Source: a virus. Taken from it: DNA of 64,000 bases. This document shows, piece by piece, positions 133 to 13,673 of this stretch. Made by a program: the position numbers and the translations under genes. Position 1 is the first letter of the stretch, and every line of letters begins with the position of its first letter. The stretch covers positions 1 through 64,000 of IMG/VR virus record IMGVR_UViG_3300042868_012782; one strand, given 5' to 3'. Below the pieces are notes generated by a model. The model ran no database searches, was not told the origin of the DNA, and saw only the letters and a program-made list of their open reading frames with translations.

Positions 133-1014
133 ACGAATGATATCAGGCACTATCTCAATGAAGCAATCAGCTTCAACCTATATAACCCAGAGTTTGATTA
201 TATATCAAATCCTATAGTCCATCTGTATCGGGCTATGGTTTGTGCGATGCGCGATAACAACGCAAGTGCCACGTCTAAGCTCTATGATGAGCTTAGATAT
301 CTTGTTGTATCAAAAGTCCATGTGAGCGTATCTGGCGCTGGCGGGAGACATGTTGCGAAGGGGTCCGTGCTATCAGGACCTAGTGAGAAAGCTAGCACAA
401 ACAGTGGTCGCAATAGCGCGACATATGTAAAGTCTGCAGGTGGTATCGCTAAGGACGGTCAGGATAGCATAGGCGCTGATGAAGCAGTTGCCATGATATG
501 GGAGCTTAGCTCCAAGACTGTCTCGTATGGCGGATATGCTAGCCGAATCATGAAGGCATATCACAAGCTTGCAACAGACAAGTCAGTGCTAGGGTGGCTT
601 GCTGGAACAGCTAGACGTGTATCTTCAGAAGATATCTTCGGCACTCTAAGGGGTCACAAGGTATATCGGGGAAAGCTAGATGCATATGAAGTAGACGTTG
701 TTGATGACAATGTGATATGCGCAGAAGACAATGAGATATCAACAGAGATCAACGGTATCGCTGGCGATATCGGGAGCTTCATAGAGGAATATGTTGAGAA
801 TACTGGTGATAGCTTGCCAGTGGTATACTATAAGCGGAAGATGGCAGATAAAGATACTGGGATAGAGTTTTGGAAGAAGTGCGGCATACCGAAAACAACA
901 GCGTATCGAAGGATAGCAAAATTCAACAAGGCTCTGCTGAATGAGATAAAGAATATAGAGTGTGATAAGGAAGTGCTAGCCTTGGCAATAGCAAGAGCCT
1001 TCCGAATGAACTAA
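1..1014 (+). CDS. TVDS-repeat protein with C-terminal helix-turn-helix, 5' end outside window
   Basis: The frame is open from base 1, so the gene begins upstream. The first 120 bases are ten copies of a 12-mer that encode (TVDS)10. A roughly 300-residue unique region follows without stops. Near the C-terminus, FWKKCGIPKTTAYRRIAKF resembles a helix-turn-helix, which suggests DNA binding (inference). The first ATG at 235 is probably internal because the reading frame and the repeat are continuous through it. A strong terminator follows at 1023. I do not recognise the family. Confidence 0.7.
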   Translation, partial: TVDSTVDSTVDSTVDSTVDSTVDSTVDSTVDSTVDSTVDSTVDITNDIRHYLNEAISFNLYNPEFDYISNPIVHLYRAMVCAMRDNNASATSKLYDELRYLVVSKVHVSVSGAGGRHVAKGSVLSGPSEKASTNSGRNSATYVKSAGGIAKDGQDSIGADEAVAMIWELSSKTVSYGGYASRIMKAYHKLATDKSVLGWLAGTARRVSSEDIFGTLRGHKVYRGKLDAYEVDVVDDNVICAEDNEISTEINGIAGDIGSFIEEYVENTGDSLPVVYYKRKMADKDTGIEFWKKCGIPKTTAYRRIAKFNKALLNEIKNIECDKEVLALAIARAFRMN

Positions 1015-1020
1015 AGATGA

Positions 1021-1058
1021 GGGCCGGATAGGGGGAACCCTATCCGGCTCTTTTTTTT
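1021..1058 (+). terminator. Intrinsic terminator after TVDS-repeat gene
   Basis: An 11-bp perfect stem (GCCGGATAGGG with CCCTATCCGGC), a GGAA loop and eight T residues form a classical rho-independent terminator. It starts just after the stop codon at 1014. Confidence 0.95.
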
Positions 1059-1446
1059 CTACTGTTGATATCAAAATATATATCTTGAACCTGGTTGATA
1101 GCCAGGCTATACTGGGCTAGCTCCTGTACTAGCCCAGATAGCCCGGTAAATTATACTAAGATAGCAACTGATATGCGGGAATGTCTTGCGACAAGCTGCA
1201 CTATGTTTATGCCAATCCTATATCTCAACAGCGCACCGATATATCAATTGCTATAGTTCGGTATTGTACCGCGCCTTTTAGGCGGGTTGCATATACTAGG
1301 ATAGCAAGCGAAAATCTGGGAATCGAGTGCTGCAAGCTGCACTATGTTTATGGCCTAAATAACCAGGGGCGGGAATCCTCCCGCCGCCGATGCACATCTT
1401 ATGGAAAGGCTAGCGAGGTGCAACGCCTTCCTTATGGAGTTGTGAT
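1059..1446 (+). repeat. Intergenic module 0 (GGGAAT-N13-CTGCAC sites at 1177, 1318, 1371)
   Basis: This is the first and most divergent leader. It opens with two hairpins: CCTGG/CCAGG at 1090-1106, and a perfect 9-bp stem CTGGGCTAG/CTAGCCCAG at 1112-1137. Three bipartite elements follow; the last reads ATGCAC and starts a seven-codon ORF at 1390-1413. The ribosome binding site of the next gene ends the module. The long open frame here is not credible as a gene because it only reads through the repeated element. Confidence 0.8.
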
Positions 1447-1713
1447 ATGGCAGCAAGATTTGAGTCAATAAAGGAAGTAGAAATCGAGGCATCCGTGTGG
1501 ACCGTTGAACGGTCCGGCACTTACGAAGTCTGGGGCGATGGTGACGAAGTCACCTTCCAAGTCGAACAAGAGAACGTCTACAAAGACGGAGTCCTGCAAG
1601 AGGACTGGACCTCTGTGGGCGAACTCCTGCCACCGATCACGGATGAAGATATTGATATAGATATGGAAGATGTAGAGAAGTCGAGACTTATGGATCAAAT
1701 ATGCGGCCGATAG
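1447..1713 (+). CDS. Small acidic hypothetical protein (88 aa)
   Basis: The start follows the module-borne ribosome binding site (ATGGAGTTGTGAT before ATG). The protein is strongly acidic, has a beta-rich centre (WTVERSGTYEVWGDGDEVTFQV) and a DEDIDIDMEDVE cluster near the C-terminus. It is a single-gene transcription unit between module 0 and the first GAAA-loop terminator. I do not recognise the family. Confidence 0.75.
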   Translation: MAARFESIKEVEIEASVWTVERSGTYEVWGDGDEVTFQVEQENVYKDGVLQEDWTSVGELLPPITDEDIDIDMEDVEKSRLMDQICGR

Positions 1714-1733
1714 ACGATCGCTGAGTAGATCGG

Positions 1734-1763
1734 GGCGGGGGGCGAAAGCCTCCCGCCTTTTTT
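1734..1763 (+). terminator. GAAA-loop terminator, copy 1
   Basis: Ten-base arms GGCGGGGGGC and GCCTCCCGCC pair with one G-U, close a GAAA tetraloop and are followed by six T residues. The same hairpin recurs almost unchanged after most genes in the first 10 kb. Confidence 0.95.
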
Positions 1764-1993
1764 CGTTGGTGGTCCTGGGAATTCTGCGGGTGAAGCTGCA
1801 CTATGGTATGGCCATCGCCTGGCGGCCGCGGCCGTACCTGCCGCGCCTAGCGGGTTAAAATTGTGGGAATAGCAAGCGAGAAGCTGCACTATCTTTCTAG
1901 GCGATTTAACCAGGGCGGGAATCTCCTTCTGGCCGATGCACATCTTATGGAAGGGCTAGCGAGGTTGCGATGCCTACCACATGGAGTTGTGAG
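1764..1993 (+). repeat. Intergenic module 1 (sites 1777, 1865, 1917)
   Basis: This is the standard module layout: site, GC-rich stem-loop (GGTATGGCC pairs with GGCCGTACC), site, short stem-loop, gene-proximal ATGCAC site, ribosome binding site. The sites lie 88 and 52 bases apart. The proximal site opens a seven-codon ORF at 1936-1959. Confidence 0.9.
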
Positions 1994-2155
1994 ATGTGCT
2001 CGTCATGCAATGTGGTCAAGATCAACGGAGTCCGGACTCACGAGTCCGGGTGCCCGGAATCTTGGAGGGAGATCAAGGCATGCTCGGCATGCCGAGAAAA
2101 GTTTCGCCCTAAGGCGAAAAACCAAAAGCACTGCCGGGACTGTCGCATCCGATAG
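1994..2155 (+). CDS. Small zinc-ribbon protein (53 aa)
   Basis: Start chosen at the ATG after the module ribosome binding site (GGAGTTGTGAG). CSSC near the N-terminus, CSAC in the middle and a CRDC pair at the end suggest bound zinc. An in-frame ATG at 1970 (MPTTWSCEM) lies inside the repeated module and is less likely. Role unknown; such ribbons often bind nucleic acid or proteins. Confidence 0.7.
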   Translation: MCSSCNVVKINGVRTHESGCPESWREIKACSACREKFRPKAKNQKHCRDCRIR

Positions 2156-2178
2156 GGATGCGTCGACAGTAAGGCAGG

Positions 2179-2208
2179 GGCGGGGGGCGAAAGCCTCCCG
2201 CCTTTTTT
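2179..2208 (+). terminator. GAAA-loop terminator, copy 2
   Basis: Same hairpin and six-T tail as copy 1, starting 23 bases after the zinc-ribbon stop codon. Confidence 0.95.
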
Positions 2209-2526
2209 CGTTGGTATTCCTAGGAATCCCGCGGGTGAAGCTGCACTATGGTATAGCCATCGCCTGGCGGCCGCGGCCGTACCTGCCGCGCTCGGCCGGT
2301 CAATATTGTGGGAATAGCAAGCGGAAAGCTGCACTATGGTATGGCTCCTGCCTGGCGGCCGCGGCCGCATCTGCCGCGCTCGGCAGCCTAGCATAGTGGG
2401 AATAACCGATCTTAAGCTGCACTATGGTTATGGGCTAAATAACCAGGTGCGGGAATCCTCCCGCCGCCGATGCACATCTTATGGAAAGGCTAGCGAGGTG
2501 CGATGCCTACCAAGTGGAGTTTTCAT
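2209..2526 (+). repeat. Intergenic module 2, four sites (2222, 2310, 2398, 2451)
   Basis: This module carries one extra copy of the 88-base site-plus-stem-loop unit, so sites 1 to 3 are each 88 bases apart. The first site reads AGGAAT instead of GGGAAT. The proximal ATGCAC site opens a seven-codon ORF at 2470-2493. The extra unit shows that the internal element can itself duplicate in tandem. Confidence 0.9.
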
Positions 2527-2835
2527 ATGACCAAGATCCAAGAAATCGAAAACCTAACAGGTTTTATCGGAAGTCTTCAGGATGGCTATCTAAAAGACAT
2601 CTTTGATGATTTAGGACCGATGATAATCGGGGCGATTCGGTCGGACTTTTGCTGTGTGCCGTACAGGGAGATGCAGCAAACAAAAGCGGATCTCCGACTG
2701 GAGATCCAAACCCTTCAGAAAGAGGCCTCGGATCTGAAGGTCCTGTTGTCTGAAGCAAGACGGCAACAGGAACGACTGAAGACAGAAATAGACGATATAA
2801 GGCGAATTGCTGCGACCATCGCTGCCTGCAGGTAA
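2527..2835 (+). CDS. Coiled-coil hypothetical protein (102 aa)
   Basis: ATG follows GTGGAGTTTTCAT. The C-terminal half (about residues 45-95) is rich in K, E, L and R with heptad spacing, indicating a coiled coil. The N-terminal half is helical with MIIGAIRSDFCC. An in-frame ATG lies upstream in the module at 2503. It is a single-gene unit closed by a terminator. Family not recognised. Confidence 0.7.
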   Translation: MTKIQEIENLTGFIGSLQDGYLKDIFDDLGPMIIGAIRSDFCCVPYREMQQTKADLRLEIQTLQKEASDLKVLLSEARRQQERLKTEIDDIRRIAATIAACR

Positions 2836-2854
2836 CAGGCGAAGGTCGGGCGGG

Positions 2855-2884
2855 GGCGGGGGGCGAAAGCCTCCCGCCTTTTTT
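2855..2884 (+). terminator. GAAA-loop terminator, copy 3
   Basis: Identical arms, GAAA loop and T tail to copy 1. Confidence 0.95.
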
Positions 2885-3113
2885 CGTTGGTATTCCTGGG
2901 AATCCCGCGGGTGAAGCTGCACTATGGTATGGCTATCGCCTGGCGGCCGCGGCCGTACCTGCCGCGCTCAGCCGGTCGATATTGTGGGAATAGCAAGCGA
3001 GAAGCTGCACTATCTTTCTGGGCGATTTAACCAGGCTGGGAATCTACTGCTGGCCAATGCACATCTTATGGAAAGGCTAGCGGGGTTGCGATGCCTACCA
3101 CATGGAGCTAGTG
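2885..3113 (+). repeat. Intergenic module 3 (sites 2898, 2986, 3038)
   Basis: Standard three-site module, nearly identical to modules 4 and 6. The proximal ATGCAC opens a seven-codon ORF at 3057-3080. The 65-residue frame starting at 2924 is read through this repeat and recurs in module 4, but is broken in the others. Confidence 0.9.
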
Positions 3114-3425
3114 ATGTTTGAGAAATTCCTTAAGGGGTATGTTGAAGCAGCTGTATTCACCAACGGTTCTGTCGTTGCGCCAATCGATGATGAAACAATG
3201 AAAGAGATAGAAACAGACTGCAGAGGTTTTTACGATAGCAACTTTGACCGCATAAAAGATGCGCCCGAAAAAGCGGGAGTCGACTTCCACTTGACCAGAA
3301 ACGGACATGGCGCCGGTTTCTGGGACGGAGGTTGGATCGATGGAGAAAAGCTGACTAAGGAAGCCAAGGTGTACGGAACTTTGGAGCTGTATTTGCACGA
3401 AGGAGTACTGTATCATCATAACTGA
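3114..3425 (+). CDS. Phage protein with RNGHGAGFWD motif (103 aa)
   Basis: Start chosen at ATG after CATGGAGCTAGTG. The segment GVDFHLTRNGHGAGFWDGG is typical, from memory, of a small protein widely found in tailed phages and of unknown function. Length is as expected for that group. It is a single-gene transcription unit. No catalytic motif is visible. Confidence 0.75.
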   Translation: MFEKFLKGYVEAAVFTNGSVVAPIDDETMKEIETDCRGFYDSNFDRIKDAPEKAGVDFHLTRNGHGAGFWDGGWIDGEKLTKEAKVYGTLELYLHEGVLYHHN

Positions 3426-3444
3426 TGGGATCTAAAAGCTGGGG

Positions 3445-3474
3445 GGCGGGGGGCGAAAGCCTCCCGCCTTTTTT
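3445..3474 (+). terminator. GAAA-loop terminator, copy 4
   Basis: Same hairpin and T tail as copy 1, starting 20 bases after the stop codon. Confidence 0.95.
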
Positions 3475-3703
3475 CGTTGGTATTCCTGGGAATCCCGCGG
3501 GTGAAGCTGCACTATGGTATGGCTATCGCCTGGCGGCCGCGGCCGTACCTGCCGCGCTCAGCCGGTCGATATCGTGGGAATAGCAAGCGAGAAGCTGCAC
3601 TATCTTCCTAGGCAATTTAACCAGGCTGGGAATCGCCTGCTGGCCGATGCACATCTTATGGAAAGGCTAGCAAGGTGCGACGCCTACCAAGTGGAGTTCT
3701 CGA
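3475..3703 (+). repeat. Intergenic module 4 (sites 3488, 3576, 3628)
   Basis: Standard three-site module; spacing 88 and 52. The proximal site opens a seven-codon ORF at 3647-3670. Confidence 0.9.
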
Positions 3704-3895
3704 ATGCCTAGGGTAGCCATTGAATTTCAAGATAAAACTGGTGAATTAGTGACAAAGTGGGCGGAACACCGCCCGGAGCACATAGGAGTCTGCGGACGAC
3801 TACGCCCGTATAGGGTGGAGTTCGGATGCATGACAGAAGACGGGTACAGATATTTCACTTGGGATCTTTTAGAAAGCGAGGCAAGACGGGTGTGA
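3704..3895 (+). CDS. Small hypothetical protein (63 aa)
   Basis: ATG follows GTGGAGTTCTCGA. The protein is compact and probably beta-rich (VAIEFQDKTGELVTKW, YRVEFGCMTEDGYRYFTW). No motif recognised. Single-gene unit. Confidence 0.65.
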   Translation: MPRVAIEFQDKTGELVTKWAEHRPEHIGVCGRLRPYRVEFGCMTEDGYRYFTWDLLESEARRV

Positions 3896-3916
3896 CGGGT
3901 GTGACGGCAAAGCAGG

Positions 3917-3946
3917 GGCGGGGGGCGAAAGCCTCCCGCCTTTTTT
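3917..3946 (+). terminator. GAAA-loop terminator, copy 5
   Basis: Same hairpin and T tail as copy 1. Confidence 0.95.
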
Positions 3947-4176
3947 CGTTGGTATTCCTGGGAATCCCGCGGGTGAAGCTGCACTATGGTATAGCCATCG
4001 CCTGGCGACCGCGGCCGTACCTGCCGCGCTCAGCCGGTCGAAATTGTGGGAATAGCAAGCGAGAAGCTGCACTATGGTTATGGGCTTATTAACCAGGGGC
4101 GGGAATCCTCCCGGCGCCGATGCACATCTTATGGAAAGGCAAGCAAGGTGCGACGCCTACCACATGGAGTTGTGAA
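3947..4176 (+). repeat. Intergenic module 5 (sites 3960, 4048, 4101)
   Basis: Standard three-site module. The stop codon of the seven-codon ORF is changed to AAG, so the frame from ATGCAC at 4120 runs in frame into the next gene. That frame would add 19 residues to it if used. Confidence 0.9.
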
Positions 4177-4431
4177 ATGACTAACTTTTGTAAGATTTTT
4201 GACGAAGTGATGATCAACAGTGTGTTCCTGAGAAAGGACGCATACTGGACAAAAGAGGATCCTCGCGGTCCAGAGTATGGACTGATCCTCGTCTGTCCTG
4301 AACCGGCAAAAATGTCGGTTCAGGTAACAAAGAAAATTAGATTTGGTACAACCGAGTACTATGTGACCAGCTGGACCGTATTGGTGCCAATTGAGCACCT
4401 AGAGGAATATCTCAAAGATCCTACCGTCTAG
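4177..4431 (+). CDS. Small hypothetical protein (84 aa)
   Basis: ATG follows GGAGTTGTGAA, the usual module ribosome binding site. The sequence alternates hydrophobic and polar residues (YGLILVCPEPAKMSVQV, TEYYVTSWTVLVPIEHLEEYL), suggesting an alpha/beta fold. The frame is open upstream into module 5 as far as 4120, so a longer form is possible but less likely. Family not recognised. Confidence 0.65.
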   Translation: MTNFCKIFDEVMINSVFLRKDAYWTKEDPRGPEYGLILVCPEPAKMSVQVTKKIRFGTTEYYVTSWTVLVPIEHLEEYLKDPTV

Positions 4432-4454
4432 TGCGAAAAGTGTCGGCGACAGAA

Positions 4455-4484
4455 GGCGGGGGGCGAAAGCCTCCCGCCTTTTTT
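4455..4484 (+). terminator. GAAA-loop terminator, copy 6
   Basis: Same hairpin and T tail as copy 1. Confidence 0.95.
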
Positions 4485-4714
4485 CGTTGGTATTCCTGGG
4501 AATCCCGCGGGTGAAGCTGCACTATGGTATAGCTATAGCCTGGCGGCCGCGGCCGTACCTGCCGCGCTCAGCCGGTTGAAATTGTGGGAATAGCAAGCGA
4601 GAAGCTGCACTATCTTTCTAGGCGATTTAACCAGGCTGGGAATCTACTGCTGGCCGATGCACATCTTATGGAAGGGCTAGCAAGGTGCGATGCCTACCAC
4701 ATGGAGCTTTGACA
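4485..4714 (+). repeat. Intergenic module 6 (sites 4498, 4586, 4638)
   Basis: Standard three-site module. The proximal site opens a seven-codon ORF at 4657-4680. Confidence 0.9.
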
Positions 4715-4990
4715 ATGGCTACTACCAGATTCCCGCGCATTTGCGACGTTGTACACGATTTAAAGGCGGTGAGAGACTCTATGGAGTCAAAGCAGACGGA
4801 TTTGGATATAAGGCTTCAAGTGTATCCTACTTCGAGCTGGGCCATTAGGGTCGGTGCGTCCGACTTTGATCAAGATCACTTCGGATACTGGGGAGCATCG
4901 AGCATCGATCAAAAAATGTCAGTGAAGACGCTGACGTCCATTGCTAGGGACATCTTGGATCAAGCCAAGGAAGCATACTCCTGCAGGTAA
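4715..4990 (+). CDS. Small hypothetical protein (91 aa)
   Basis: ATG follows ATGGAGCTTTGACA. The protein has an amphipathic helix (VVHDLKAVRDSMESK), a strand-rich centre (LDIRLQVYPTSSWAIRVG) and a C-terminal helix. It reads as a small globular domain. No family recognised; single-gene unit. Confidence 0.65.
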   Translation: MATTRFPRICDVVHDLKAVRDSMESKQTDLDIRLQVYPTSSWAIRVGASDFDQDHFGYWGASSIDQKMSVKTLTSIARDILDQAKEAYSCR

Positions 4991-5010
4991 ATAAGCAGCG
5001 GGGGGTCTGG

Positions 5011-5040
5011 GGCGGGGGGCGAAAGCCTCCCGCCTTTTTT
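5011..5040 (+). terminator. GAAA-loop terminator, copy 7
   Basis: Same hairpin and T tail as copy 1. Confidence 0.95.
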
Positions 5041-5268
5041 CGTTGGTATTCCTGGGAATCCCGCGGGTGAAGCTGCACTATGGTATAGCTATCGCCTGGC
5101 TGCCGCGGCCGTACCTGCCGCGCTCGGCCGGTCGAAATTGTGGGAATAGCAAGCGAGAAGCTGCACTATGATCTTGACTATTTAACCAGGCTGGGAATAA
5201 ACTTTTGGCCGATGCACATCTTATGGAAAGGCAAGCAAGGTGCGACGCCTACCAACTGGAGTTTTGAT
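5041..5268 (+). repeat. Intergenic module 7 (sites 5054, 5142, 5193)
   Basis: Three-site module that shares an altered second loop (GATCTTGACTATTTAACC) with module 8. As in module 5, the seven-codon ORF has lost its stop and continues in frame into the next gene from 5212. Confidence 0.9.
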
Positions 5269-5475
5269 ATGAAAAGATGGATTGAGATCGAGGACATCAA
5301 GGCGGCTGTTGATTCAGGAAGGATTGTCTACGCAGATAGTAAATCGTACCAAGTCAAAAAAATAAAACAAGAATACATGATTGTATACCATGGAGGGCAA
5401 ATGGTCGGCCTTCACGGCGCTGAGGGGACGCCTTTTGAAAGAGTTATGAACGGGAAACTGTTCTGGTCTGAGTAA
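5269..5475 (+). CDS. Small hypothetical protein (68 aa)
   Basis: ATG follows TGGAGTTTTGAT. Basic N-terminal half (KSYQVKKIKQEYMIVYHGG) followed by a Gly-rich turn. No known motif. It could also be read from 5212 with an N-terminal extension drawn from the module. Confidence 0.6.
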   Translation: MKRWIEIEDIKAAVDSGRIVYADSKSYQVKKIKQEYMIVYHGGQMVGLHGAEGTPFERVMNGKLFWSE

Positions 5476-5498
5476 CGAAAAGGTCTGAGTGACCATGG

Positions 5499-5528
5499 GG
5501 CGGGGGGCGAAAGCCTCCCGCCTTTTTT
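5499..5528 (+). terminator. GAAA-loop terminator, copy 8
   Basis: Same hairpin and T tail as copy 1. Confidence 0.95.
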
Positions 5529-5756
5529 CGTTGGTAGTCCTGGGAATTCCGCGGGTGAAGCTGCACTATGGTATGGCTATCGCCTGGCGGCCGCGGCCGT
5601 ACCTGCCGCGCTCAGCCGGTCGAAATTGTGGGAATAGCAAGCGGGAAGCTGCACTATGATCTTGACTATTTAACCAGGCTGGGAATAAACTTTTGGCCGA
5701 TGCACATCTTATGGAAAGGCTAGCAAGGTGCGACGCCTACCAACTGGAGTTTTGAG
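5529..5756 (+). repeat. Intergenic module 8 (sites 5542, 5630, 5681)
   Basis: Three-site module that pairs with module 7 in its second loop. The proximal site opens a seven-codon ORF at 5700-5723. Confidence 0.9.
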
Positions 5757-6320
5757 ATGAATATTGAAGAACGCGCTGCCGCCATGGCAGATAACCATAA
5801 GAACTACAAGGATTTCTCTTGGATGGATCGACCGTCTGAAGGGGTGTGGTGTCTTCACTACACCCATACCAGAGACAGTGATCGGGTCGAAAGAAGCAAC
5901 GGCGCGGTTATCGCTGCAGAAATGGGGAAGCAGTCTAGCGACGATGTGTCGCTTGAGCACCACACTCACTTCGCCGTAGGATGGGTGGACGGCGTGGCCG
6001 TCCGAATCTACGACAACGAAGGCAAGGTGACAAAGGCATTCGAGAAGCTTCATCAGCTTCTGTCCAAAATCGAGGACTATCCTATCCTCGATGAAGACGG
6101 ATACTCATCACTTGAGAATGATGAGTTAGCAGAAGAAATGTCTCAGTGCATAAAACATGTGGGTAGAAATTTCGATGAGGAAATAACTCAAGAGATTATA
6201 GACAAGGTTGACGCCTGGCTTCAGACCAATAGGTCGGAAGCTTTCTATGAGGAGAGATGGAGTTTGAAGGAGAAGGCGGTCGATGAGGCCTTAACAGCAC
6301 TTGGGCTGACTAGGTCCTAA
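5757..6320 (+). CDS. Phage protein of unknown function (187 aa)
   Basis: ATG follows TGGAGTTTTGAG. The pattern HYTHTRDSDRVERSNGA ... HTHFAVGWVDGVAVRIYDN ... DYPILDEDGYS resembles, from memory, a protein family found in many tailed phages with no assigned role. The C-terminal 60 residues are helical and acidic. It is the largest single-gene unit in the cassette array. Confidence 0.75.
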   Translation: MNIEERAAAMADNHKNYKDFSWMDRPSEGVWCLHYTHTRDSDRVERSNGAVIAAEMGKQSSDDVSLEHHTHFAVGWVDGVAVRIYDNEGKVTKAFEKLHQLLSKIEDYPILDEDGYSSLENDELAEEMSQCIKHVGRNFDEEITQEIIDKVDAWLQTNRSEAFYEERWSLKEKAVDEALTALGLTRS

Positions 6321-6333
6321 GAGGGGGCGGGGG

Positions 6334-6363
6334 GGCGGGGGGCGAAAGCCTCCCGCCTTTTTT
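6334..6363 (+). terminator. GAAA-loop terminator, copy 9
   Basis: Same hairpin and T tail as copy 1. Confidence 0.95.
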
Positions 6364-6590
6364 CGTTGGTGATCCTGGGAATTCCGCGGGTGAAGCTGCA
6401 CTATGGTATAGCCATCGCCTGGCGGCCGCGGCCGTACCTGCCGCGCTCAGCCGGTCGATATCGTGGGAATAGCAAGCGAGAAGCTGCACTATGGTTATGG
6501 CCTCATTAACCAGGCTGGGAATCGCCTTCTGGCCGATGCACACCTATTGTGAGAGGTGAAGGACACCGATCGCAACAACAGGAGACTCGC
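6364..6590 (+). repeat. Intergenic module 9 (sites 6377, 6465, 6517)
   Basis: Three-site module with a different 3' junction (CTATTGTGAGAGGTGAAGG) shared only with module 11. The proximal site opens a seven-codon ORF at 6536-6559 ending in TGA, whereas most copies end in TAG. Confidence 0.9.
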
Positions 6591-6785
6591 ATGAAATATA
6601 GCGTAAGAGTTGTTCGTACCGTGACGATGGTTGCGGACGTAGACGTAGAGGCAAAAAGCGAAATAGAAGCAAAAGAGGCAGCCGTGGAAGCTGCAAGCGC
6701 GGGCGAAGATATCGAGTGGTCAGAACAGGACACATCGGATATTATTGCCTGCCCGTTATGTAGTGTTGATCCGTATGAGCAGTAA
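6591..6785 (+). CDS. Small YSVRVV-type protein, paralogue family A (64 aa)
   Basis: ATG follows CAGGAGACTCGC. N-terminal strand YSVRVVRTVTMVADVDVEA, then an Ala/Glu helix (EAKEAAVEAA). The same plan (Y-x-V-x-I/V, then V-x-A, then an EA-rich helix) is seen at 12207 and 26513, so these look like paralogues. Function unknown. Confidence 0.7.
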   Translation: MKYSVRVVRTVTMVADVDVEAKSEIEAKEAAVEAASAGEDIEWSEQDTSDIIACPLCSVDPYEQ

Positions 6786-6808
6786 GGAATTTTAAGTCGA
6801 AAAGAAGG

Positions 6809-6838
6809 GGCGGGGGGCGAAAGCCTCCCGCCTTTTTT
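6809..6838 (+). terminator. GAAA-loop terminator, copy 10
   Basis: Same hairpin and T tail as copy 1. Confidence 0.95.
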
Positions 6839-7068
6839 CGTTGGTGCTCCTGGGAATCCCGCGGGTGAAGCTGCACTATGGTATAGCTATAGCCTGGCGG
6901 CCGCGGCCGTACCTGCCGCGCTCAGCCGGTCGATATTATGGGAATAGCAAGCGAGAAGCTGCACTATGTTTATGGCCTAAATAACCAGGCTGGGAATCCC
7001 TTTGTTGCCGATGCACAGCTTATGGAGAGGCTAGCAAGGTGCGATGCCTTCCAACAGGGAGTTTAAAA
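6839..7068 (+). repeat. Intergenic module 10 (sites 6852, 6940, 6992)
   Basis: Standard three-site module. The proximal site reads ATGCACAGC and opens a seven-codon ORF at 7011-7034. Confidence 0.9.
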
Positions 7069-7383
7069 ATGAGCTACAACGGTTATGTAAATTACGAAAC
7101 ATGGTGTGTAAATGTCTGGATGAGCAACGGGAATACGGAGCTGTACGAAGAAATGGCTTGCGAGTACCTCAAGGAATCGGATGGGGACGAAAGTTTGGCA
7201 CGCCGAGAGCTAGCCGACTGGCTTAAGGGCGAAGTCGGGGAGTTCCCAGAAGGATTAGACAACACGAGCATGATGGGAGATTTATTGAAATCGGCAATAG
7301 GCAAAGTAGACTGGCGAGAGATCGCCGCAAGCTATATCGAATCGGCAGTAGAGGCGGTAGAGCAAGAAAAGGAGTCAGCATGA
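7069..7383 (+). CDS. NYETW-motif phage protein (104 aa)
   Basis: ATG follows AGGGAGTTTAAAA. The N-terminus YNGYVNYETWCVNVWMSN matches a common phage and plasmid motif (N-G-x-x-N-Y-E-T-W) known from small proteins of unknown function. The rest is helical and acidic. It heads a three-gene unit with two very short downstream ORFs. Confidence 0.8.
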   Translation: MSYNGYVNYETWCVNVWMSNGNTELYEEMACEYLKESDGDESLARRELADWLKGEVGEFPEGLDNTSMMGDLLKSAIGKVDWREIAASYIESAVEAVEQEKESA

Positions 7384-7514
7384 GCAAGATCTTTGTGGCC
7401 ATTCCCAAGGATGGATGGAAGGTTCCTGACCGCTCAGGACCAAAACAAAAACGAGAACGAAGGAAGAAAACCAGGTCGGCTAGGATCGCTGTAGTTCTGA
7501 GGGAGTGGCAATGA
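7380..7514 (+). CDS. Small basic peptide (44 aa)
   Basis: Start overlaps the previous stop (ATGA). The peptide is strongly basic (KQKRERRKKTRSARIAVV), so nucleic-acid contact is possible. Translational coupling is the main support for its being real. Confidence 0.5.
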   Translation: MSKIFVAIPKDGWKVPDRSGPKQKRERRKKTRSARIAVVLREWQ

Positions 7515-7579
7515 TGTTTTTTGCGGTAGGGGCGGGGATATTCCTCGCCCTGGTGGGGGCGCTGGCGAGCAGCCGATAG
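7511..7579 (+). CDS. Short membrane peptide (22 aa)
   Basis: Start overlaps the previous stop (CAATGATG). Nearly the whole peptide is one hydrophobic segment (MMFFAVGAGIFLALVGALA). It is supported only by coupling and by its composition. The 3' end of this gene is partly repeated before the next terminator at about 8202. Confidence 0.45.
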   Translation: MMFFAVGAGIFLALVGALASSR

Positions 7580-7585
7580 TAGTTG

Positions 7586-7615
7586 GGCGGGGGGCGAAAG
7601 CCTCCCGCCTTTTTT
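7586..7615 (+). terminator. GAAA-loop terminator, copy 11
   Basis: Same hairpin and T tail as copy 1. Confidence 0.95.
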
Positions 7616-7842
7616 CGTTGGTGACCCTGGGAATCACGCGGGCGAAGCTGCACTATGGTATGGCCATCGCCTGGCGGCCGCGGCCGTACCTGCCGCGCTC
7701 AGCCGGTTGATATTGTGGGAATAGCAAGCGGAAAGCTGCACTATGGTTATGACCTCATTAACCAGGCTGGGAATCGCCTGCTGGCCAATGCACAGCTATT
7801 GTGAGAGGCGAAGGACGCCGATCGCAACAAAAGGAGCAAGTG
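7616..7842 (+). repeat. Intergenic module 11 (sites 7629, 7717, 7769)
   Basis: Three-site module with the same 3' junction type as module 9. The ORF from ATGCAC at 7788 has no stop at codon 8 and is not in frame with the next gene. Confidence 0.9.
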
Positions 7843-8175
7843 ATGCAGACATGGGATGTGCCAGTAAAATCTCTCCGAGACGATATGACCCACGTAAGAG
7901 TGGCGGTCGTCTACAGAAAAGGCGAGGGGAGATGTCCAAGGGGCTACTATCTGTCGGTCAATCCGGTAAAGATTGATAACGAGTTTGTAACCTGCCCTCT
8001 TGGCAGAGGGCGGGTCGTCAGTCTGGCTGCCGTAGTGCGCAGCTCAAAGAAACTGGAACAGTCGTTCGGCAAGCAAGTATCAGTAGAGTTGCTGTTCCAA
8101 CTCGGTCAGACGTGGGACATGGTCGTTGGCGTCGCTGATCAGAACTCTCTTGAACTGAAGGAGGGTGGGAAATGA
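7843..8175 (+). CDS. Hypothetical protein (110 aa)
   Basis: ATG follows AAAGGAGCAAGTG, a strong ribosome binding site. The sequence is beta-rich (MTHVRVAVVYRKGEG, RGYYLSVNPVKIDNEFVTC, QVSVELLFQLGQTWDMVVGV). Family not recognised. A seven-codon remnant (8172-8193) follows and looks non-functional. Confidence 0.65.
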   Translation: MQTWDVPVKSLRDDMTHVRVAVVYRKGEGRCPRGYYLSVNPVKIDNEFVTCPLGRGRVVSLAAVVRSSKKLEQSFGKQVSVELLFQLGQTWDMVVGVADQNSLELKEGGK

Positions 8176-8216
8176 GTTACTCATACGAATGGTAGGACGG
8201 CAGCCGATAATAGTTG

Positions 8217-8246
8217 GGCGGGGGGCGAAAGCCTCCCGCCTTTTTT
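8217..8246 (+). terminator. GAAA-loop terminator, copy 12
   Basis: Same hairpin and T tail as copy 1. About 17 bases of homology with the region before copy 11 extend upstream of the hairpin. Confidence 0.95.
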
Positions 8247-8474
8247 CGTTGGTGGTCCTGGGAATTCCGCGGGTGAAGCTGCACTATGGTATAGCCATCG
8301 CCTGGCGGCCGCGGCCGTACCTGCCGCGCTCGGCCGGTCAAAATGTTGGGAATAGCAAGCGGGAAGCTGCACTATGGTTATGGCCTCATTAACCAGGCTG
8401 GGAATCGCCTGCTGGGCGATGCACAGCTTATGGAAAGGCCAGCAAGGTGCGATGCCTTCCTCAAGGAGACGACC
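8247..8474 (+). repeat. Intergenic module 12 (sites 8260, 8348, 8400)
   Basis: Standard three-site module. The ORF from ATGCAC at 8419 lacks a stop at codon 8 and runs out of frame with the next gene. Confidence 0.9.
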
Positions 8475-8618
8475 GTGGAAAACAACGACATACTTGAAAA
8501 AATTGAAAAGGCCATGTCCATGGCTAGAATTTACTTGGACGACCAATACGAGTTCTTAGAAGTGACTGAACCACTTCGGGATGCTGTCAAGTTGTTATTG
8601 TTAAAGGAGAAACAATGA
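8475..8618 (+). CDS. Small hypothetical protein (47 aa), GTG start
   Basis: GTG follows CAAGGAGACGACC. The short helical acidic protein (ENNDILEKIEKAMSMARIYL) ends in LLLLKEKQ and overlaps the next start (AATGA). Support comes from the ribosome binding site and the coupling. Confidence 0.6.
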   Translation: MENNDILEKIEKAMSMARIYLDDQYEFLEVTEPLRDAVKLLLLKEKQ

Positions 8619-8827
8619 AGTATCACATTCAAGAAGGATTTGGGCCTATTGATCAACAGGGCCAAGCCCCTGCCTGTCAGCAGTGTTGGGGGGTCAGGCT
8701 AGTCAAGGCGACATTTGCAACTGCCGAAGAAGCGTCAGATTTTGCAGATAAGTGGTACGAGCGAAAAATCAAGAAGATCGACTCAGACGACTGGAAGTCG
8801 TATTGGGTTAGAGTACTGAATGTCTGA
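8615..8827 (+). CDS. Small hypothetical protein (70 aa)
   Basis: Start overlaps the previous stop, with AAAGGAG upstream. Contains CQQC, then VRLVKATFATAEEASDFADKWYERK. The strand-then-helix layout resembles other small proteins here that carry an EEA-x-x-F/A helix. Family not recognised. Confidence 0.65.
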   Translation: MKYHIQEGFGPIDQQGQAPACQQCWGVRLVKATFATAEEASDFADKWYERKIKKIDSDDWKSYWVRVLNV

Positions 8828-8834
8828 CGATAGG

Positions 8835-8865
8835 GGCGGGGGGCGAAAGCCTCCCGCCCTTTTTT
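8835..8865 (+). terminator. GAAA-loop terminator, copy 13
   Basis: Same arms and loop, with one extra C before a six-T tail. It begins only eight bases after the stop codon. Confidence 0.93.
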
Positions 8866-9136
8866 CGTTGGTGGTCCTGGGAATTCCGCGGGTGAAGCTG
8901 CACTATGGTATGGCCATCGCCTGGCTGCTGCGGCCGTACCTGCCGCGCTCGGCCGGTCAAAATATTGGGAATAGCAAGGGAAAAGCTGCACTATGTTTTC
9001 GGCGTTCGTTTGCGTCGACGTGGGAATGGGCAGCGGGCTGCTGCACTATGAAATACCAGGCTTATGGCCTGGCGGGAATAACCAGCTCATCAATGCACAC
9101 CTATTGTAAGGGCATGGTGCCCGATTACTAGGAGCG
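8866..9136 (+). repeat. Intergenic module 13, four sites (8879, 8967, 9022, 9074)
   Basis: Sites 1 and 2 keep the 88-base spacing, but the second half is divergent. Site 3 has a long linker GGGCAGCGGGCTG, and the last site reads ATGCAC and opens a 12-codon ORF at 9093. From here on the modules drift from the consensus sequence while the 13-base gap is kept. Confidence 0.85.
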
Positions 9137-9457
9137 ATGATCATGAGAACGTGGCGTGGGGAATTTGCTGATTTCGACGAAAACCTCGATACCAAAGCCA
9201 AGGATCTAGAGTCTTTGGGGTTTGAGGATTCTTCTTGGCATAACGACATATGCCCATCTTACAGTCTGGCTCTGCCGGAAGACAAATATATCCAGATATT
9301 CATAGACTATGTGGATCCAGCACTGCGCGAATTCCCAGAATGGAAGCGGTTTCTCGTGATCATGGTTGATCAGGACAATGTGACGACTCCGATGTTCAAG
9401 TCGGACGATTGGGGGGAGGCTCTTACCTTCCTTAAGGAGACTGGGAAAAGCGCGTAA
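9137..9457 (+). CDS. Hypothetical acidic protein (106 aa)
   Basis: Two in-frame ATGs (9137 and 9143) follow TAGGAGCG; the second has the better spacing. Sequence features: SYSLALPEDKYIQIFIDYVDP, then FLVIMVDQDN, then a C-terminal helix. Family not recognised. Single-gene unit closed by a different terminator. Confidence 0.65.
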   Translation: MIMRTWRGEFADFDENLDTKAKDLESLGFEDSSWHNDICPSYSLALPEDKYIQIFIDYVDPALREFPEWKRFLVIMVDQDNVTTPMFKSDDWGEALTFLKETGKSA

Positions 9458-9472
9458 GGGATTGTGTGCGAG

Positions 9473-9501
9473 CGGGGAGGGGAAACCCTCCCCGTTTTTT
9501 T
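9473..9501 (+). terminator. Intrinsic terminator with GAAA loop, different stem
   Basis: A 9-bp perfect stem CGGGGAGGG/CCCTCCCCG closes a GAAA loop and is followed by seven T residues. The design matches the common copies but the stem sequence differs. Confidence 0.95.
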
Positions 9502-9718
9502 GCGTTTTTACGCCTGGGAATTTGGCGCAGCAATCTGCACTATGGTGTACGCGTTGCTCAGAGCGCGGGCGCGTACCTGCCGCGCTTAGCTGGTCGAAGT
9601 GATGGGAATAGCAAGCAAGAAGCTGCACTATGTTTTTGGCTATTTGTGCCTGGCTGGGAATCGATGGCGAACCAATGCACAGCTTTGGGAAGTAAAGGTC
9701 TCAACCAAGGAGGATGAA
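9502..9718 (+). repeat. Intergenic module 14 (sites 9516, 9604, 9656)
   Basis: Diverged sequence, but sites still lie 88 and 52 bases apart with the 13-base gap. The proximal ATGCAC at 9675 opens a six-codon ORF ending in TAA. Confidence 0.88.
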
Positions 9719-10054
9719 ATGGCTCATAATTTTTTGCTGACAGATCGATCTGGCCGCGGTATTTCTACGACCGTAGACATAGATCATGTGCTTAAGTTTT
9801 TTGGGGATATGCTGACCGACGGAGACTTCGATTACCGACCTGTGTCTGATTGGGCAATGGGTGCAAGTATTGCCCAGAGCATAGAAGTTCACGAGGAACG
9901 ATTGGAGCTTACTGCTCTTGATAGCAACCAAGAGACAAGGTATAAGGTGAGAGCCAGTTACTGGTTCGACATAAAGGAAGACGCAGTAAAATTTGCTGAC
10001 CAGGTTCGGCGAATCGCAGATGAGCAAAATTGCAATGGAACAGTAGTTTCATAA
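9719..10054 (+). CDS. Hypothetical protein (111 aa)
   Basis: ATG follows CCAAGGAGGATGAA, a near-perfect ribosome binding site. The protein has a strand-rich second half (EVHEERLELTALDSNQETRYKVRASYWF) and ends with a helix. Family not recognised. Single-gene unit. Confidence 0.7.
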   Translation: MAHNFLLTDRSGRGISTTVDIDHVLKFFGDMLTDGDFDYRPVSDWAMGASIAQSIEVHEERLELTALDSNQETRYKVRASYWFDIKEDAVKFADQVRRIADEQNCNGTVVS

Positions 10055-10062
10055 CCGCGGAG

Positions 10063-10093
10063 GGCGGGGGGCGAAAGCCTCCCGCCTTTTTTT
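10063..10093 (+). terminator. GAAA-loop terminator, copy 14
   Basis: Same hairpin as copy 1 with a seven-T tail. Confidence 0.95.
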
Positions 10094-10657
10094 GTTTTTT
10101 GGGAATCAGAGACAACAACCTGCACTATGTTCTAGGGCTTTTGCGCCCGCGGCCCCTGCGTATCGGCCCTGCGAAGCCGGTCGCCATTATGGGAATAGCA
10201 AGCAAGAAGCTGCACTATGTTATGGGCAGCGCCCTAGCGCCCGCGGCCGTACTGGCCCTGCGAAGCCGGTCGGCATTGTGGGAATAGCAAGCAACAATCT
10301 GCACTATGTTATTGGCTTTGATCTTGCCTTGCGCAGCCTGCTGCAGCACGCCGCGCACCTGCAAACAAAAGACATTTCATAGTGCAGAATTGGAATCGGT
10401 ATTCCCAGGCGCCCGCGCGGGAATCGCGCCGCGGTAGCTGCACTAGTATCTGCCCCACATAACCGGTCGACTGGGAATGCCGCCAGCCTGGCTGCACTAT
10501 GTTCCAGGGGCTTAAGCCAGGGGCCTGGGAATGCCTCGCTTGCCGATGCACAGCTTTTGTGAAGGTTAACGATCTGCAGCAAGGTGCTGCGGGAATAATC
10601 GAAACCATCATGCACGACAGATGAGAGCCGACTGTTGAAGTATAGGGAGACTGCGCC
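10094..10657 (+). repeat. Intergenic module 15, seven direct sites and one inverted site
   Basis: Direct sites at 10101, 10191, 10280, 10419, 10473, 10527 and 10591 all keep the 13-base gap. The last two read ATGCAC. An inverted copy (CATAGTGCAG at 10378, 13 bases, ATTCCC at 10401) faces away from the site at 10419. GC-rich stem-loops (GGGC...GCCC types) lie between sites. A seven-codon ORF is at 10546-10569. No other gene is visible in this 560-base gap. Confidence 0.88.
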
Positions 10658-11578
10658 ATGCTGATGTTAAATAGTAGAAGAAAAGCGCCAGTAGTTTTCG
10701 GTCGTCAGATTGCCATGAAGGTAGCTAGGTTGGCTGCCAAGGCAAACATGTTCGATCTGGTTCAAGGTCTAGAAGAGCTGGTGTTAGGATTACCGCGGTT
10801 TGGGCCAGGTTCTACCTGGTATATCTGGGGCAACAAGGTGCTATCTTTCCTTAGGGGCGAGTCTGCGCCACCACTAAAAGTATTCAAGAAAGATGGTAAT
10901 AGTAAGTTACCATTTTACACCTGGAGTACGGTGCCTATCTACACTTGCCCTGGCAAGGGCCAGTGCGCTAGCTGGTGCTATAGTCTGAGAGCCTGGCGTT
11001 ACGCTGCGCCATTCTGGCGCCAAGTACAGAACACCATTATGATCCGGTTCTTTCCTGAGATGATTGCCGACCTATTCGTAGGTCTGCCTCAGAACATCAC
11101 TTTCCGTCTCTATGTTGACGGAGACTTCGATTCTGAAGGCACTGTCCGGTTCTGGTTCCGTCTGTTGCGCTTGCGTCCTGATATTGAGTCTTACGGGTAC
11201 TCTAAGTCGTGGGACGAGATTTATTCGGCTAGGGACGCATTCCCTGAGAACTACGTCTTGAACGTGTCCTCGGGCGGCAAGGTCCGCTCTATCGATCAGG
11301 CAACAATTGAAAGCCTATCGATAACCCGCGGCAAGTTTCTGGCGGTGAGCGTAGACAAGCGCTTCATCGATATGAAGACCGAAGACCGCTACGCTAGTGC
11401 CGAATACCATAAGGCCGTCCGTGAGTCGGCTAAGGCGCTAGGCCACCAGCGCGTGTTCTCGTGCCCCGGAAAGTGCGGCGAATGCGTGACTAAGAAAGAC
11501 GGGACCAATGAACACGCATGCGGGCAAAGCAAGGCTGGACGATTTGGCTTGATGGTCATTGCGAACGGTATCCACTAA
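10658..11578 (+). CDS. Gp88-like phage protein (306 aa)
   Basis: ATG starts MLMLNSRR. A Cys-rich centre (CPGKGQCASWCYSLRAWR) is followed by FRLYVDGDFDSEGTVRFWFRL, and the C-terminus has CPGKCGECVTKKDGTNEHACGQSK. This pattern of CPG and C-x-x-C clusters matches, from memory, the Gp88 family seen in mycobacteriophages and other tailed phages, of unknown function. Metal binding by the Cys residues is likely (inference). It is the longest gene of the cassette region. Confidence 0.75.
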   Translation: MLMLNSRRKAPVVFGRQIAMKVARLAAKANMFDLVQGLEELVLGLPRFGPGSTWYIWGNKVLSFLRGESAPPLKVFKKDGNSKLPFYTWSTVPIYTCPGKGQCASWCYSLRAWRYAAPFWRQVQNTIMIRFFPEMIADLFVGLPQNITFRLYVDGDFDSEGTVRFWFRLLRLRPDIESYGYSKSWDEIYSARDAFPENYVLNVSSGGKVRSIDQATIESLSITRGKFLAVSVDKRFIDMKTEDRYASAEYHKAVRESAKALGHQRVFSCPGKCGECVTKKDGTNEHACGQSKAGRFGLMVIANGIH

Positions 11579-11641
11579 TTCTGAACGATGGGTGGCGAGT
11601 ATGGTACTCGCCACCCTGGTGTGGGCGATAGGGGGTGTTCT

Positions 11642-11839
11642 ATGCAGATTGTGATTGATTTGAAGAAACTGGCCGAGGCTTCGTTTTCTAAGAAAGATCT
11701 GGCCAGGCTGGCCGCGGAAGGCTCGGAAGGGAATGCAGTGTTTGATAGCGTCGATTGGACGTCGTCAGTAATGGATGGGCTGGAAGAGTCCCATTCGTTT
11801 GAGGCGGTACTAATGGAATTCATAGCTGCCAACTACTAA
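11642..11839 (+). CDS. Small hypothetical protein (65 aa)
   Basis: ATG follows AGGGGGTGTTCT. A basic first half (IDLKKLAEASFSKKDLARLAAEG) precedes an acidic helical tail. The 63 bases before it carry an inverted repeat, GGTGGCGAG ... CTCGCCACC, around 11589-11615, which may be a weak hairpin behind the Gp88-like gene. Family unknown. Confidence 0.6.
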   Translation: MQIVIDLKKLAEASFSKKDLARLAAEGSEGNAVFDSVDWTSSVMDGLEESHSFEAVLMEFIAANY

Positions 11840-11847
11840 CAAATCTC

Positions 11848-11887
11848 ATCCAGGGCGGGGCCACCCCGTCCTGGATTTTTTTATTTT
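11848..11887 (+). terminator. Intrinsic terminator with 13-bp stem
   Basis: ATCCAGGGCGGGG pairs with CCCCGTCCTGGAT (one G-U) around a CCA loop, followed by TTTTTATTTTTT. Confidence 0.95.
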
Positions 11888-12172
11888 TTGGGAATCGGCG
11901 TTCTTGAGCTGCACTATGTATTCCTTGTTTTAGGAGTGCTAGCATTTCCGCGACCTGGGAATAGAAGCTGCCTGGCTGCACTATGTTCTAACCCTGAGTA
12001 TTCACTCAATTCGGGAATAAAGCCAGGGGTGATGCACTATGTTTTCTAGCCTGGCTGTCGGTGTCTGGGAATACCATGTGACCAGATGCACGAGTTATGT
12101 GAGGGGTAGTTGATGCGGGCCGCGGATGGGTGGGAATCACATCGGGCTGCATGCACAACTAAGGAGGGGCTG
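11888..12172 (+). repeat. Intergenic module 16, five sites (11890, 11957, 12013, 12067, 12132)
   Basis: Strongly diverged module with all five sites at the 13-base gap. The third site is intermediate (ATGCACTATG). The last two are ATGCAC type; 12086-12109 is a seven-codon ORF. Inter-site sequences share no obvious identity with the early modules. Confidence 0.85.
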
Positions 12173-12223
12173 ATGTCCCTCTGGGGTCTCAAGCAAAGGG
12201 GGCGGGATGAGATATCAAGTTAA
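12173..12223 (+). CDS. Possible leader peptide (16 aa)
   Basis: ATG lies five bases after AAGGAGGGG, the strongest ribosome binding site in the region, and encodes MSLWGLKQRGRDEISS. The stop lies 17 bases inside the next gene, so translation could be coupled. The small size keeps confidence low. Confidence 0.35.
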   Translation: MSLWGLKQRGRDEISS

Positions 12224-12407
12224 GATTGTAACGACCCACACGATGGAGGTGTCTGCCGACAACCGATTTGAGGCGCTAAGGCAGGCCAAACGCCAGTCAA
12301 AGTACCGGACGGAGCTGGAGAGCTTCGCCCAGGTCCTAGACCAAGACGGGTCGGAGTGGACCGTGAAGGAAACGCCCGTTGCCATTATTTGGCAGGGCAA
12401 GGAGTAA
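12207..12407 (+). CDS. Small YQVKIV-type protein, paralogue family A (66 aa)
   Basis: ATG follows AAGGGGGCGGG. N-terminal strand YQVKIVTTHTMEVSADNRFEA, then a basic helix. It has the same layout as the proteins at 6591 and 26513. Probably a small alpha/beta domain; role unknown. Confidence 0.7.
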   Translation: MRYQVKIVTTHTMEVSADNRFEALRQAKRQSKYRTELESFAQVLDQDGSEWTVKETPVAIIWQGKE

Positions 12408-12478
12408 TAAGGTACGCCAGGGGGGTAGGCGCGGTGCATGCCTCCTGGCTATGTGCGTCGACGCAAGGAGGAAGATAT

Positions 12479-12814
12479 ATGTCTCAAGAGCTACTGAATG
12501 TCGCTGAGGAAATACTTCGCAACAGTTTTACTTCGTGCAATTGCTCGCCTATGGTATGCGATAGCACTTGCACTCATGGTAAGCTGGTGTTGGCTGTAGC
12601 CAACGCCAAGAGCAAAGAAAAGGTCTTTGTGGTCTGGGGGGAACAGCCCAGCAAAGATCAGTCTGTCTGTACATATGAGTTTTCTACTCCAGAGGAGGCG
12701 TGCGCCTTTAAGCTGGGGATCGACGAGAGCCTGGGGTGGGGCGACGCCGTCTACTATTTTACTACCAAAGAAGAGGCGCAAGATTACCTAAAGGAGGTCG
12801 GATATGATGGTTGA
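12479..12814 (+). CDS. VVWG-motif hypothetical protein, paralogue family B (111 aa)
   Basis: ATG follows GGAGGAAGATAT. An N-terminal Cys cluster (CNCSPMVCDSTC) precedes VFVVWGEQPSKDQSVCTYEF, EEACAFKLGIDESLGW and FTTKEEAQDYLKE. The second half aligns well with the protein at 17645, so the two are paralogues and this one has an added Cys-rich head. Function unknown. Confidence 0.7.
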   Translation: MSQELLNVAEEILRNSFTSCNCSPMVCDSTCTHGKLVLAVANAKSKEKVFVVWGEQPSKDQSVCTYEFSTPEEACAFKLGIDESLGWGDAVYYFTTKEEAQDYLKEVGYDG

Positions 12815-13097
12815 CCAGAAGCACTACCCCAATCTGGTTGGGGAGATCGACATGGCGGGTAGTCGGTGGGAATATACCGCCATTGGAAACTTTGAGCATG
12901 ACACGCTGTTCGTGTCAGTGAGGCTCCAGAAGAAAGTGGGGCGCGTGTGGCGCATGGTGGCTGGCCCCTATCAATTTCATGACGGCAAACTAGACCGCGG
13001 CGAAGACCAGGACGTGACCTTCACCGAAGACTGCATGGTGCGACTCGAGGCTGCTGTGATCGATGCCATGCACAAGAACTGGCCTTTCGACTTCTAA
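12804..13097 (+). CDS. Hypothetical protein (97 aa)
   Basis: ATG follows AAAGGAGGTCGGAT and overlaps the end of the previous gene by 11 bases. Beta-rich middle (RWEYTAIGNFEHDTLFVSVRLQ) and conserved-looking C-terminus. Family not recognised. Forms an operon with the gene at 12479. Confidence 0.7.
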   Translation: MMVDQKHYPNLVGEIDMAGSRWEYTAIGNFEHDTLFVSVRLQKKVGRVWRMVAGPYQFHDGKLDRGEDQDVTFTEDCMVRLEAAVIDAMHKNWPFDF

Positions 13098-13119
13098 TTG
13101 TCTAGCCGCCGCGGCGATT

Positions 13120-13148
13120 CCCCAGGGGTTACCCCCTGGGGTTTTTTT
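13120..13148 (+). terminator. Intrinsic terminator CCCCAGGGG/CCCCTGGGG
   Basis: A 9-bp perfect stem with a four-base loop is followed by seven T residues. Confidence 0.95.
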
Positions 13149-13673
13149 ATGCCTAGTGGGAACCGCGGTACACAATCTGCACTATGTTCTAGGGCTTTTG
13201 CGCCCGCGGCCCCTGCGTATCGGCCGTGCGGAGCCGGTCGACATTGTGGGAATAGCAAGCAAGAAGCTGCACTATGTTATGGGCAGTGCCATGGCGCCCG
13301 CGGCCGTACTGGCCCTGCGAAGCCGGTCGAACTTGTGGGAATAGCAAGCAAGAAGCTGCACTATGTTTTAGGGTTTTGCGTTCGCCGCCCTGCGGGAATC
13401 TGGCCGCGGTAGCTGCACTAAGTTATTGCCGCATCTGAAGTTGCGTTCCGCAAAATTTTTTTGCCCCCTTAAACATAGTGCAGAATAAAAACCCTATTCC
13501 CGCGGCCTGGGAATGGACCCAGGAGTGCTGCACTATGTTCTTGTGGAGCCAGGGGAGCGCGTGGGAACGCTCGCTTTTCCAATGCACGGCTTATGTAAGG
13601 AAAACGTGCTGAGGCCAACAGGGGGTGGTAATCTTCTGGGCCGACATGCACGACTGATGTAAGGGGGTGGACG
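13149..13673 (+). repeat. Intergenic module 17, seven direct sites and one inverted site
   Basis: Direct sites at 13158 (GGGAAC), 13248, 13337, 13394, 13509, 13563 (GGGAAC) and 13627 (GGTAAT), each with a 13-base gap. An inverted site (CATAGTGCAG at 13474, 12 bases, ATTCCC at 13496) points away from the site at 13509. The first half is close to module 15. This is the last full module; genes beyond are arranged in operons. Confidence 0.88.

Follow-up and report, generated by a model that had tools for sequence, protein, structure and literature searches.

The window analysed here, the first 64 kb (64,000 nucleotides) of the 82,770-bp IMG/VR virus record IMGVR_UViG_3300042868_012782, carries near its start an array of small genes separated by 18 repeated intergenic modules (1015-13673), each with copies of a short bipartite element, GGGAAT-N13-CTGCACTATG. 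With a probability of roughly 0.78, we consider these elements to be noncanonical tandem promoters, each module ending one transcription unit and starting the next. The elements are most likely tandem promoters because they lie on the strand of the genes, between terminator and ribosome binding site (18/18 modules), and have an absolutely fixed spacing resembling that of -35 and -10 boxes. Recognisable promoters in the same slot in two relatives, designated G011 and L106, support this. The window element is not a canonical sigma70 promoter. Its sequence is specific to its lineage while layout and spacing are kept, suggesting that early genes are read in each lineage via a promoter code of its own.

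The module array and its bipartite element

Between the modules stand short operons or small genes on their own, with mostly one and up to three genes per cassette (1447-13097, plus strand; approximately 22-306 amino acids). In all 18, an intrinsic terminator is followed by the bipartite elements and then by the ribosome binding site. Terminator-like sites are far above expectation (69 vs 12.1), and a 24-mer, GGCGGGGGGCGAAAGCCTCCCGCC, is identical in 14 of the terminators with zero mismatches, where none would be expected; the terminators of modules 1, 15, 17 and 18 are variants. A promoter-like element, putatively active, follows the terminator in each case.

Allowing up to three mismatches, the element has 48 matches, against 0.42 expected in shuffled sequence, and 47 of them fall within 1177-13537. 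Two classes can be distinguished. Class A, with the core GGGAAT-N13-CTGCACTA, reads TGGGAAT-N10-AAGCTGCACTATG and is present in two to five copies per module, usually two, with modules 16 and 18 having five full or near-full elements each. Class B adjoins the gene and retains GGGAAT-N14-TGCAC, after which its sequence diverges from that of class A. The spacing is N13 in 42 copies, and N8-N12 and N14-N20 occur in none. A T7-like reading of the right-hand 'CACTATG' was set aside because the distant left box is conserved.

All modules are on the plus strand. Module 1 (1015-1446) has a variant terminator at 1019-1052, class A elements at 1177 and 1318, and class B at 1371. For the modules that follow, we give the span, terminator, class A positions and class B position in that order: module 2 (1714-1993; 1734-1757; 1777, 1865; 1917), module 3 (2156-2526; 2179-2202; 2222 with one mismatch, 2310, 2398; 2451), module 4 (2836-3113; 2855-2878; 2898, 2986; 3038), module 5 (3426-3703; 3445-3468; 3488, 3576; 3628), module 6 (3896-4176; 3917-3940; 3960, 4048; 4101), module 7 (4432-4714; 4455-4478; 4498, 4586; 4638), module 8 (4991-5268; 5011-5034; 5054, 5142; 5193), module 9 (5476-5756; 5499-5522; 5542, 5630; 5681), module 10 (6321-6590; 6334-6357; 6377, 6465; 6517), module 11 (6786-7068; 6809-6832; 6852, 6940; 6992), module 12 (7580-7842; 7586-7609; 7629, 7717; 7769), module 13 (8196-8474; 8217-8240; 8260, 8348; 8400), module 14 (8828-9142; 8835-8858; 8879, 8967, 9022; 9074) and module 15 (9458-9718; variant, 9470-9497; 9516, 9604; 9656). 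Module 16 (10055-10657), upstream of a GP88-family gene, has its terminator at 10063-10086, class A at 10101, 10191, 10280, 10419 and 10473, and class B at 10527 and 10591. Module 17 (11840-12206) combines a variant terminator (11848-11876) with class A at 11890 and 11957, an intermediate form at 12013, and class B at 12067 and 12132. Module 18 (13098-13673) has a variant terminator (13120-13141), class A at 13158, 13248, 13337, 13394 and 13509, and class B at 13563. Two further elements are on the minus strand, in modules 16 (10378-10406) and 18 (13474-13502), head to head with plus-strand copies; the resulting pairs (10378-10447 and 13474-13537) are imperfect inverted repeats, which may be divergent promoters or hairpins. 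Searches with the modules and with the GP88-family gene gave no match among isolated phages.

The preliminary description had proposed 18 modules on one plan, with a GAAA-loop terminator and three or more elements in each, and near identity among the early ones. The common plan is borne out by the number of modules, the excess of elements and the repeated 24-mer. The GAAA loop is found in most modules and is missing in modules 1, 17 and 18, and the figure of three or more elements applies to most modules if class B is counted, the usual complement being two full elements and one proximal variant. Near identity proved to be a mean of 82% across modules 2-14 (71-93% pairwise). The idea that cassettes are bounded units holds, by inference from the terminator and promoter-like module around each one and from the like layout of the relatives.

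One class B-like element beyond the array (19113-19137, plus strand), followed by a hairpin, looks real. Apart from it, the elements are restricted to the array and are not scattered over the remainder of the record, where no second promoter motif could be convincingly recognised when one was sought. Within the array, sigma70-like promoter sites occur at the level of chance (12 vs 11.6 expected). This distribution bears on the possibility that the elements are operators, of the repressor or stoperator type, which would shut off cassettes after a separate promoter or block read-through in a lysogen. The many nonpalindromic copies in one orientation do recall the stoperators of Cluster A mycobacteriophages, but those are repressor sites spread genome-wide, whereas the window elements are restricted to the array. 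The known 13-bp stoperator consensus is not clearly enriched in the window (6 vs 2.9 expected), no integrase was found in the record or in the relative G024, the window modules show no other promoter type, and canonical promoters fill the slot in G011. We therefore regard operators as very unlikely.

A role in RNA also needs to be weighed, with the elements as structured leaders or protein-binding sites acting in antitermination, translation or stability after a start further upstream. Downstream class A copies would indeed be transcribed from upstream starts, and stem-loops lie between and after the elements. A hairpin is present downstream of class B in many leaders (mean z of -1.5, -1.1 and -3.4 in three phages, vs -0.9, 0.05 and -1.0 in controls), and in the window it shows some compensatory changes, with weak covariation. 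However, an Rfam search of the window matched no family, a pair of short boxes kept at one exact distance, with variable sequence between them, is usual for promoters read as DNA, and G011 and L106 show recognisable promoters at the same place. The chances of this explanation are as slim as those of operators, and tandem promoters remain our preferred reading.

Related phages keep the layout and change the boxes

Relatives, all uncultured, were traced from DnaE and one other core gene. The first found by core genes held no exact copy of the window element, G024 carrying an element of its own, and contigs of the 70-kb class were without the array region. The module array is present in every closer relative with the region in its record.

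G024 (149 kb) is colinear with the window record, with identities of 40-88% for most core proteins. On the reverse strand, the first 14 kb form its early region, which has a terminator, one to three elements, a ribosome binding site and small genes; the class A element reads GAGYCAAACC...AACTGCACTC, and the class B form ends in ...AACTGCAATAAGGGTGAG. In L089 the corresponding elements are GAAAAAG...CTGCACTTATC and GAAAAA...CTGCTCAAATAGTGAG. The left boxes thus differ between the window (GGGAAT), G024 (GAGYCAAAC) and L089 (GAAAAA), while CTGC is common to all three and the left box starts 19 nucleotides before it in each. The spacing is N13 only, with no variant, in 42, 19 and 23 copies respectively. 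Three further relatives (L095, L100 and L109), located via a sigma gene divergently adjoining the array, have GAGACAAT as their element, with the same 19-nucleotide offset. A GG(n)AAAGCAAGC-type box after a GC hairpin or T-run is conserved in the window, L089, G024 and G011, even where the left box has changed.

In the more distant G011, canonical TTGACA-N17-TATAAT promoters precede the small-gene cassettes of the array. In L106, TAAAT-N15-ACGAA occurs 17 times and can be aligned in register with sigma-28-type promoters, for which the FliA consensus is TAAA...CCGATAA. In IMG/VR, the window element produced no more than seven isolated matches, which we attribute to chance, and each motif had multiple matches only within its own lineage among the matches listed, the others being single. 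The lineage-varying element, the canonical promoters of G011 and the sigma factors encoded by these phages are additions to the preliminary description.

A fast-evolving factor specified by the first gene of the array, together with its tens of tandem promoters, which would alter along with it while spacing and layout stay fixed, would constitute a private promoter code. We put this forward tentatively, at somewhat below even odds; the leading proteins, in most lineages devoid of any recognisable domain, would on this view represent a new and extremely diverged sigma-like kind. If true, these phages would offer factor-promoter pairs in a natural series, each genome holding tens of cognate sites, and would show how the recognition sequence of an entire regulon can be exchanged while its architecture is kept. 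The concerted evolution of promoters and reader would be directly testable, and the arrays would be a source of insulated expression modules.

Candidate readers of the array

The window phage encodes one clear sigma factor and one weaker one, as judged by domain matches. The protein of 38027-38548 (plus strand) exceeds the Sigma70_r4 cut-off, has a weak r2 match and matches the PHROG sigma factor family (E=2.8e-16); its matches among solved structures are bacterial sigma factors, WhiG, RpoS and FliA among them. The second, at 30296-30814 (plus strand), has a weak Sigma70_r4 match, and its G024 homolog passes the Sigma70_r2 cut-off. Sigma-like proteins are encoded in 5/5 phages tested. A further sigma gene, in divergent orientation to the array, is present in both G024 and L089; in G024 this placement presupposes that the record's two ends are contiguous, and a terminase-like gene follows. 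PF00940 (single-subunit RNA polymerase) found no match, but the control genomes were equally without one, so that this result carries no weight.

In L106 the first gene of the array has Sigma70_r2 and r4 matches (E approximately 3e-4 each, just below the curated cut-offs) and sits behind TTGACA-N17-TAATAT. By position, this sigma-like gene corresponds to those encoding the array-leading proteins of the other phages. In the window the array-leading open reading frame (1-1014, plus strand) is open to the contig start and apparently homologous to the first array gene of G024 and, more weakly, to that of L089. The record starts inside a 12-bp tandem repeat coding for (TVDS)n within this reading frame (1-128), probably at an assembly break. 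The array-leading proteins of the window, G024, L089, L100 and others appear homologous and are very diverged, with that of G024 approximately 24% identical to that of the window or L089. On position and fast divergence, the array-leading open reading frame is a candidate for the specificity factor that reads the array.

Under the tandem-promoter reading, the intrinsic terminator would stop the upstream cassette and two to five promoters would follow, each with GGGAAT as -35, a fixed spacer and (TGC)ACTATG as the -10 region. We infer that transcription starts at the elements; the class B transcript, close to the gene, would begin just before a small 5' hairpin, followed by the ribosome binding site. 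Host core RNA polymerase with a phage-encoded specificity factor would read these promoters, and the factor, for which we favour the array-leading gene, would be made first from a host-type promoter. The cascade would thus run from host sigma to phage specificity factor to cassettes. That the reader is phage-encoded is the option towards which we lean, if only modestly.

Alternatively, the tandem promoters could be read by a host sigma, either a noncanonical primary or an alternative one, with left boxes that differ through different hosts. Phages usually rely on host RNA polymerase for their early genes, and G011 has canonical promoters in the slot. Querying bacterial genomes with the array-adjacent sigma brought up no relative. 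On the other hand, a sigma gene heads the L106 array, sigma-like proteins recur across the phages tested, the motifs are lineage-confined in IMG/VR as described above, and an upstream AGCAAGC box is kept between phages while the left box changes. We find a host sigma unlikely, though well short of negligible.

Several observations weigh against tandem promoters read by an array-leading factor. Classes A and B diverge directly after TGC, in the very part of a -10 element that would be expected to vary least, and the leader hairpin has no consensus fold and no covariation in L089. The leading protein of the window has no Pfam or PHROG match and no detectable sigma homology; profile comparison of leading proteins with sigmas gave no signal (P=0.62 for that of the window), and none of the sequence or structure tests identified the leading proteins as sigmas. 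AlphaFold models of the protein, alone and with three homologs, were unusable (pLDDT, the predicted local distance difference test, of 34 and 47), and Foldseek matches to the second model (E>0.3) were disregarded. Sigma70-like promoters before the leading genes are marginal against shuffles (P of 0.03, 0.04, 0.30, 0.45 and 1.0).

Comparison with known systems

T4-type phages reportedly carry promoter early stem-loop cassettes (PeSLs), a system attributed to Arbiol (2010) and Comeau (2014). Much as the window modules putatively do, these combine a terminator stem-loop and a promoter between small early open reading frames; they are dense in variable regions and may aid gene shuffling. The window promoter, however, would be noncanonical and lineage-specific, with two to five copies per module plus a proximal variant, and a host sigma70-type early promoter, which defines PeSLs, is found only in the distant G011. 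The T4 polymerase is not of the DnaE type, unlike that of the window phage, for which the best identity to an isolated phage was 34%. The modules most likely work as PeSL-type promoter-terminator cassettes do, minus the defining host sigma70 promoter. The PeSL work (Arbiol 2010; Comeau 2014) is cited in PMC4503421.

Phage-encoded sigma factors include gp47 of phage 7-11 and gp36 of phiEco32, and gp47 reads a bipartite GTAAtg-(16)-aCTA (PMC8948821). The likeness extends to a phage sigma, encoded here at 38027-38548, a bipartite noncanonical promoter (here a putative one) with a CTA-type end and promoter-like spacing before genes, and a consensus that differs between related phages. There, however, the promoters are few and middle or late, whereas here there are tens of copies on small early-type genes.

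The start-associated sequences (SAS) and extended start-associated sequences (ESAS) of Cluster K mycobacteriophages are likewise repeated, oriented and nonpalindromic, stand before many small nonstructural genes, and in some cases include inverted repeats. The SAS is a 13-bp sequence that overlaps the ribosome binding site, 3-7 bp from the start codon (PMC3203893), and it is not enriched in the window, where GGGATAGGAGCCC, the motif sought close to start codons, gave 1 match vs 1.2 expected.

Gene exchange between arrays

Several cassette genes, most of them without known function, have homologs in G024 and L089 in other orders, and shared genes stand in different cassette or operon contexts in the relatives. 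The genes at 5269-5475 and 6591-6785 occupy separate cassettes in the window and form one fused gene in L089 (8383-8793), inside an operon and with no module between them. The clearest DNA-level similarity to L089 outside the modules (7830-8162, 85% identical) covers one gene with its ribosome binding site and no module. In the close pair G024 and L091 (approximately 92-97% identical) genes have been gained or lost inside operons, and no cassette gain or loss was seen over the stretches compared in the near-identical sets L095/L100/L109 and L102/L103.

These comparisons support gene mobility, and exchange through the modules is plausible. The cassette swapping proposed earlier agrees with the differing gene orders and contexts, but the exchanges and indels that could be traced lie at genes. 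Genes without modules, which had been named as evidence against the modular plan, do occur singly (the two fused in L089), while all closer relatives covering the region have the array. It is conceivable that the modules do not act as promoters at all and serve chiefly as substrates for recombination or persist as selfish repeats, as the similarity among modules 2-14 and the shuffled gene order might suggest. Yet the order of terminator, elements and ribosome binding site is always kept, layout and spacing are conserved across phages with unrelated left boxes, and the exchanges seen involve genes and not modules, so that we consider this explanation highly improbable.

Other features of the window

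Directly after the early region, 20279-20599 encodes a LexA DNA-binding domain that lacks the protease portion and is conserved in G024. Further downstream are a ribonucleotide reductase with a LAGLIDADG intein-like insert (47061-49646) and a RecA-like gene with a probable intein (53481-55583). A threonine/proline-rich repeat protein of 1369 amino acids is encoded at 42729-46838, with a 21-bp tandem repeat at 46101-46348.

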